Source of the DNA: Chloroflexaceae bacterium
GTDB lineage: Bacteria; Chloroflexota; Chloroflexia; Chloroflexales; Chloroflexaceae
DNA: 45,179 bases
NCBI GenBank assembly: GCA_028282325.1
Contig: JANQID010000073.1
Coordinates: 1-45,179 of the forward strand
Direction: 5' to 3'
Position numbers and translations under genes: made by a program. Under the pieces are notes generated by a model that saw only the letters and a list, made by a program, of their open reading frames with translations, was not told the origin of the DNA and did no database searches. This document shows, one piece after another, positions 3,607 through 3,753 of the stretch (its first letter is position 1; each line of letters opens with the position of its first letter).

Positions 3607-3656
3607 TGGCGCCGGAGGCGAGACTCGAACCCGCACGGCCTTGCGGCCAAGGGGTT
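3607..3656 (-). repeat. Tandem partial copy of the 3' half of tRNA-Leu
   Basis: This 50-nt stretch matches 3668-3717, the variable arm, T arm, acceptor 3' strand and CCA of the neighbouring tRNA-Leu, at 47 of 50 positions. The offset is exactly 61 nt. Differences are at 3610, 3621 and 3654. The D arm and anticodon arm are absent, so it cannot be a functional tRNA. Duplicated tRNA 3' ends are the usual trace of integrase-type insertion at a tRNA gene, but only 11 nt lie between the copies here. Confidence 0.85.
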
Positions 3657-3670
3657 GCATCAGTATCTGG

Positions 3671-3753
3671 TGCCGGAGGCGGGACTCGAACCCGCACGGC
3701 CTTGCGGCCAAGGGTTTTTAAGACCCCAGCGTCTGCCATTCCGCCACTCCGGC
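3671..3753 (-). tRNA. tRNA-Leu (anticodon UAA)
   Basis: Class II tRNA of 83 nt, with an encoded CCA at 3668-3670. The acceptor strand GCCGGAG pairs with CTCCGGC. The anticodon stem-loop has the loop CTTAAAA, placing anticodon TAA at plus 3718-3720, which reads UUA leucine codons. The long variable arm typical of leucine tRNAs (TTGGCCGCAAGGCCG) and the T-loop GGTTCGAGTCC are present. It is transcribed toward the partial duplicate at 3607-3656. Confidence 0.95.

Follow-up and report, generated by a model that had tools for sequence, protein, structure and literature searches.

The window analysed here, i.e., the whole stretch of 45,179 nucleotides, contains a single tRNA gene according to ARAGORN, namely tRNA-Leu(UAA) on the minus strand at 3668-3753. 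The features that surround it are listed below with their coordinates and strand.

426..3236, plus strand: FAD-linked oxidase gene (PF01565, PF02913), convergent, on the far side of the putative scar
3371..3584, minus strand: pseudogene of DUF3224 (PF11528) that follows the copy immediately, with its start, MTTHAHG, at 3584
3607..3656, minus strand: displaced, attR-like copy (47/50) of the last 50 nt of the tRNA, beginning in the anticodon arm and ending at CCA
3657..3667, minus strand: 11-nt spacer GATACTGATGC from CCA to the copy, a possible remnant of either an element end or the tRNA trailer
3668..3753, minus strand: intact tRNA-Leu(UAA) gene with encoded CCA (ARAGORN; Rfam RF00005, 56.6 bits), the candidate attB/attL side
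3808..4746, minus strand: gene whose product has an SH3-like C-terminus (Pfam SH3_3, 24.4 bits, below the curated cut-off of 27), the upstream neighbour of the tRNA

When the region 3000-4800 is searched with Rfam, tRNA-Leu(UAA) is again the sole tRNA reported (56.6 bits). Downstream of this gene and in the same orientation, a repeat finder pairs positions 3607-3656 with 3668-3717 (50 nt, 94% identity, spacing of 61), and the identity block of the copy stops exactly at CCA, i.e., it reaches the 3' end of the tRNA. The original prediction, according to which the tRNA 3' half is repeated next to the intact gene with 47 of 50 positions identical, a 61-nt spacing and an 11-nt gap, is confirmed by the repeat finder and ARAGORN. 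Its description of the copy as T arm and acceptor including CCA holds insofar as both are present, but the 50-nt block takes in the variable arm as well and starts in the anticodon arm. There the left edge of the match fades: tRNA raw positions 37-38 match, position 39 is a mismatch (A/C) that sits at the ragged edge of the copy, and from position 40 onwards everything matches except raw positions 72 (C/T) and 83 (A/G). In the usual numbering, these correspond to C62 of the T stem and to the discriminator base A73, respectively, meaning that the copy carries C62T and A73G; at these positions the intact gene, judged by eye, has the same bases as the relatives. Neither ARAGORN in the window nor Rfam in 3000-4800 calls a tRNA at the copy, for which the tRNA 5' half is absent. 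The minimum-energy fold of tRNA plus copy pairs the acceptor 5' strand with the copy, with a z score of -1.33 that is not notable.

A match of 47/50 greatly exceeds what chance would give. At 28 other tRNA-Leu(UAA) genes, with downstream stretches of 1.0-1.5 kb at 27 loci and 182 nt at one, the best same-strand 50-nt match does not exceed 26/50, and a binomial estimate for 47/50 gives about 4e-21. The sequence beyond the copy is unlike a tRNA trailer or terminator and corresponds to the start region of the DUF3224 pseudogene; no minus-strand terminator-like site was found in 3200-3900. This pseudogene retains a C-terminal part (3374-3565) that corresponds to profile positions 76-125 of 126 in a changed frame, and it is devoid of the central part, the missing middle being deduced from homologues. 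It looks like the record of one more deletion beside the copy.

A comparison set made up of this genome and 60 relatives from the same family or order provides the context for these observations. PF00589 integrases are present in all 37 genomes searched, our own included, and for this reason only adjacency to the tRNA was counted as evidence. Such adjacency is found in four genomes, G012, G016, G018 and G030, in which a PF00589 integrase is found beside the tRNA-Leu(UAA) 3' end or beside an isolated 3' half of this tRNA, either ending about 91-100 nt away or reading into it. In G030, the integrase ends 91 nt from a lone tRNA-Leu(UAA) 3' half, and in G012, G016 and G018, integrases point at the tRNA from the 3' end itself, with the G016 reading frame stopping 100 nt from it. 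The four are related, those at the tRNA itself with 65-83% identity to the G012 protein. Of the five places with at least 65% identity to this protein, the fifth, a broken gene in G012 (contig C41), was left out of the adjacency count, as were a match in G032 (contig C170) and weaker ones.

Lone tRNA-Leu(UAA) 3' halves without the 5' half occur, among the matches listed, in G004, G018, G026 and G030. In the BLAST alignments all of them end at CCA, and they start at C32 of the anticodon loop in G004, G018 and G026 and at position 29 in G030; compared with the core in these relatives, the copy described here is shorter by 5-8 nt at its start. When the 40 nt that precede C32 are compared, G018 and G026 agree at 34/40, G004 and G030 at 20/40, and the other four pairs at 5-6/40. 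From this sequence similarity, the G018 and G026 halves seem to belong to one related element. In G004, a 55-nt 3' half, identical at 53/55 positions (96.4%) to that genome's own tRNA-Leu(UAA), lies 5,072-5,126 nt downstream of it, and the proteins encoded in the 5.1-kb interval bounded by the two include two with SEC-C and SWIM motifs; no integrase was found inside this interval.

tRNA-Leu(UAA) loci could be surveyed in 40 of the 60 relatives, with downstream stretches of 0.2-20 kb. A same-strand downstream half copy is seen at only one of them, that of G004, and an integrase-like ORF lies downstream at seven (G002, G012, G016, G018, G026, G028 and, weakly, G042). The HMM behind the latter count was seeded with five ORFs, two from G002 and one each from G012, G016 and G018, and only G026, G028 and G042 are independent finds. 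No integrase-like ORF was found at five tRNA-Leu(CAA) loci. Judged from adjacency, the tRNA-Leu(UAA) 3' half is putatively used by integrases in these relatives, which supports the earlier suggestion that this type of tRNA sequence may serve as an integrase att site. The search for integrase-linked tRNA-Leu(UAA) examples that had been proposed as a check yields those in the four genomes, together with the G004 half at 5.1 kb.

A further line of evidence comes from the genome itself (4.6 Mb, 140 contigs), in which one complete element is found at another tRNA:

L124 (contig C53 of this genome, G000) 1699-11196: complete tRNA-Gly(UCC) element of 9.4 kb with a PF00589 integrase and a D5_N replication protein

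Here, a 47/47 copy of the tRNA 3' block, which starts in the anticodon stem, lies 9,377 nt downstream of tRNA-Gly(UCC). The integrase is located about 80 nt from the tRNA, and a further protein of the element matches HTH_17 with a score below cut-off. Next to the element the tRNA ends in CTCCG, whereas the displaced copy ends in CTCCA, which can be read to mean that the last base of the tRNA was changed by the end that the element supplied, and a similar trailer, GACGCGGTAT...CGCGTTTTT, follows both. This arrangement resembles that of tRNA-Leu(UAA) in the shared tRNA 3' block and differs from it in that the 9.4-kb element is complete. tRNA-Lys(UUU) also has an integrase about 54 nt downstream; no copy of its 3' half lies within the 5.75 kb that lead to the contig end. 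Among the 47 tRNAs of the genome, surveyed with flanks of 0.26-14 kb, six have a downstream match to their own 3' half, four of these matches being inside a neighbouring tRNA gene. Once such neighbour-gene cases are set aside, the remaining copies are those of tRNA-Gly(UCC) and tRNA-Leu(UAA).

The neighbourhood of tRNA-Leu(UAA) is laid out as at an insertion hotspot, with a conserved upstream and a varied downstream side. Homologues of the SH3-like protein are found on contigs of Chloroflexus, Oscillochloris, Chloroploca and similar bacteria. Within about 1.5 kb upstream of tRNA-Leu(UAA), such a homologue is present in 11 of 18 same-family loci and a piece of gatB in 8 of 18. In a named-genome set of 27 loci, which comprises the strong matches (L141-L167) among 46 and leaves out 19 weaker ones, the SH3-like match ends 8-219 nt before tRNA-Leu(UAA) in 16 loci and 6,844 nt away in one; these counts and those of the 18 loci are not independent. 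The other 10 of the 27 stretches contain no tRNA-Leu(UAA), four of them ending within 1.3 kb of the SH3-like gene. The remaining six extend 2.8-10 kb beyond that gene and still hold no such tRNA, so that the gene order is not universal. Downstream of tRNA-Leu(UAA), the sequence looks different by eye in most loci, though its first 40-60 nt are common to groups of loci. The FAD oxidase was not found to adjoin tRNA-Leu(UAA) in the relatives; at one locus, L067, a protein with 34% identity to it is encoded at a distance of about 14 kb. Synteny therefore revealed no empty site.

Considered together with the structure of the locus, the integrases at the same site in relatives and the presence of such an element at another tRNA of the genome, we infer two past events at tRNA-Leu(UAA), an insertion and a later deletion. 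In the explanation that we regard as probable, the copy is an attR-like displaced 3' half left by a tyrosine-integrase element that was later lost by imprecise deletion. The element would have inserted into the 3' half of tRNA-Leu(UAA) and supplied a replacement half, whereby the tRNA at 3668-3753 would have stayed intact while the original half came to lie at the element's far end. An imprecise deletion would then have removed the element, keeping 11 nt beside the tRNA and cutting 5-8 nt into the core of the displaced half, which would account for its ragged left edge. An illegitimate deletion is preferred over site-specific excision, since clean excision leaves one core, and here there are two with an 11-nt gap. 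C62T and A73G, which the displaced half may have acquired later, are as expected once selection on it was gone. The insertion itself is not directly seen, because none of the seven PF00589 matches of the genome is on the window's contig (C122) and no further copy of the tRNA-Leu(UAA) 3' half was found elsewhere in the genome at E 0.001. It had been left open earlier whether an element is gone from between the copies or was never inserted there; the integrases at this site in relatives favour the former, and the latter is kept as the lesser possibility.

The idea that a second full tRNA-Leu(UAA) stood in tandem with the first and was later stripped of its 5' half and of most of the sequence between the genes can draw on the adjacent tRNA genes with similar 3' halves that occur in this genome, such as two tRNA-Ala. 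It is nevertheless unlikely. None of the 84 loci with tRNA-Leu(UAA) carries two (some of these overlap or repeat a genome, and the own locus is included), and neither ARAGORN nor Rfam recognises a second full tRNA with a 5' half at the copy. If the duplicated unit had a trailer, GATACTGATGC would be expected beyond the second copy as well, where it is absent. Moreover, this route needs the same deletion step as the loss of an inserted element, without an integrase to make the copy.

Even less likely is a tandem copy of the 61-nt segment made by slippage or unequal exchange. The short distance, the direct orientation and the presence of nothing element-like between the copies are what such an event would give, but the spacer should then recur. 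In fact, it matches the 11 nt beyond the copy at 4/11 and the tRNA just before the block at 2/11, versus 47/50 (94%) in the block; the chance of its being an equally diverged repeat is about 7e-7 on the former side and 5e-10 on the latter. Since the spacer is repeated on neither flank, a plain 61-nt tandem duplication is rejected, and no head-to-tail duplication of the whole unit including the spacer was found. The exact end at CCA would, in addition, be a coincidence. The original prediction had reserved simple slippage for a duplication that is unique and has no integrase-linked example in relatives; such examples exist, and the 61-nt segment does not recur as a whole.

The 3' half of a tRNA extends roughly from the anticodon loop to CCA, and the block found here, from anticodon arm to CCA, roughly equals such a half. 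A DNA copy of the 3' half of a mature tRNA cleaved in the anticodon loop could conceivably have been inserted downstream of the tRNA's own gene, in which case the site without the copy would read GATACTGATGC joined to CGAGCAGAAGG. We consider this very unlikely, as no second such insertion was found among the 47 tRNAs of the genome (flanks of 0.26-14 kb), and near-identical block boundaries occur at integrases, or 5 kb from the tRNA, in relatives. Finally, an assembly artefact, in which a mis-join across direct repeats has removed from the assembly an element that the genome does contain, finds some room in a genome of 140 contigs and yet is scarcely probable, since repeat collapse should, as an argument, give one merged copy and not two differing copies with a unique 11-nt spacer.

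The spacer was also scored as a possible element end against the sequences that follow CCA at eight loci with either an integrase or a half copy, picked after viewing, with 46 other tRNA flanks of the genome as controls. Scores at least as high are reached by 3/46 flanks by best score and 1/46 by mean, by 7.5% (best) and 0.9% (mean) of random words, and by 8.2% and 2.4% of shuffles, respectively. Because similar post-CCA sequence is present at loci where no integrase was seen, this reading of the spacer is weakened further; it is suggestive at best and is not used as support. The spacer word occurs with one mismatch at 14908, 15962 and 24255 of the window and nowhere near the tRNA, giving four window matches versus 1.0 expected, a number reached by 1/100 shuffles.

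Returning to the tyrosine-integrase element as the probable source of the copy, its proposed route follows a known pattern. According to the Islander paper (PMC4383910), an element that integrates at a tRNA 3' half completes the gene with its own half while the original one is displaced, and both anticodon-centred and T-stem crossover sites are described. Islander islands, as defined there, share with our locus an intact tRNA and a same-orientation downstream 3' fragment that reaches the tRNA 3' end, but they need an integrase and 2-200 kb in between, whereas here no element is present between the copies and only 11 nt separate them. An island finder with a 2-kb minimum, as Islander is described there, would miss such a scar. 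tRNA fragments have likewise been ascribed to site-specific integration in PMC2764846, where they mark or lie among islands with reductive dehalogenase genes; in contrast, no island is left at our locus. In PMC9897764, mobile-element integration is said to partly duplicate tRNA genes, the duplicates being mis-annotated as tRNA genes, and remnants of this kind are expected to be widespread. The likeness to our case lies in the partial tRNA duplication by integration, and the difference in the about 9-23 kb of element DNA there. PMC9934374 concerns tandem prophages at a tRNA-Thr and not an empty scar. att scars made of tRNA fragments are thus well known, also in this phylum (Dehalococcoides), and the instance here is new.

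Phage records that match the query number 27, the best 20 of which cover at most 58% of it, within the tRNA side; among these 20 matches listed, eight are annotated as tRNA-Leu. Exact tRNA patterns gave no match in viral and genome contig collections. The repeats downstream of E. coli tyrT contain a tRNA 3' piece, a case for which the open-access literature yielded no paper. In the same literature, no title found names tRNA-Leu(UAA) as an integration site in this family. The present comparison points to tRNA-Leu(UAA) as such a site for this family of bacteria, where integrases of one related group adjoin it, and the locus described here would be a clear example of a tRNA-fragment scar that has outlived its element, an ordinary kind of genomic scar.

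A few additional observations concern tRNA genes and integrases of the set. In G012 (L057), the integrase frame runs antisense into tRNA-Leu(UAA), and in G018 (L055) it runs through the gene, so that the att core would encode part of the integrase C-terminus. This is not new, since some integrases are noted to extend across attP in the Islander paper (PMC4383910). On contig C131 of our genome (L118), the tRNA-Asp(GTC) gene, which neighbours tRNA-Glu(CTC), contains a stretch that agrees with part of the latter's 3' half at 37/38 positions.

In several relatives, tRNA-Leu(UAA) is split in the anticodon loop region, by about 0.2 kb in L042 (G037) and L043 (G040) and about 0.7 kb in L044 (G046); these three inserts show no intron family match in Rfam at E up to 0.1. 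A longer insert of about 2.0 kb interrupts the gene at U34/A35 in L041 (G022, contig C539, 574-2675). For a group II intron, the anticodon loop of a bacterial tRNA seems an unusual location, on which nothing was found in open-access papers. The L041 insert codes for a protein of 466 aa that contains reverse-transcriptase (RVT_1, 34.9 bits) and intron-maturase (32.8 bits) domains, and its last part, immediately ahead of the 3' exon, matches a group II intron domain (2537-2623; Rfam RF00029, 58.9 bits).
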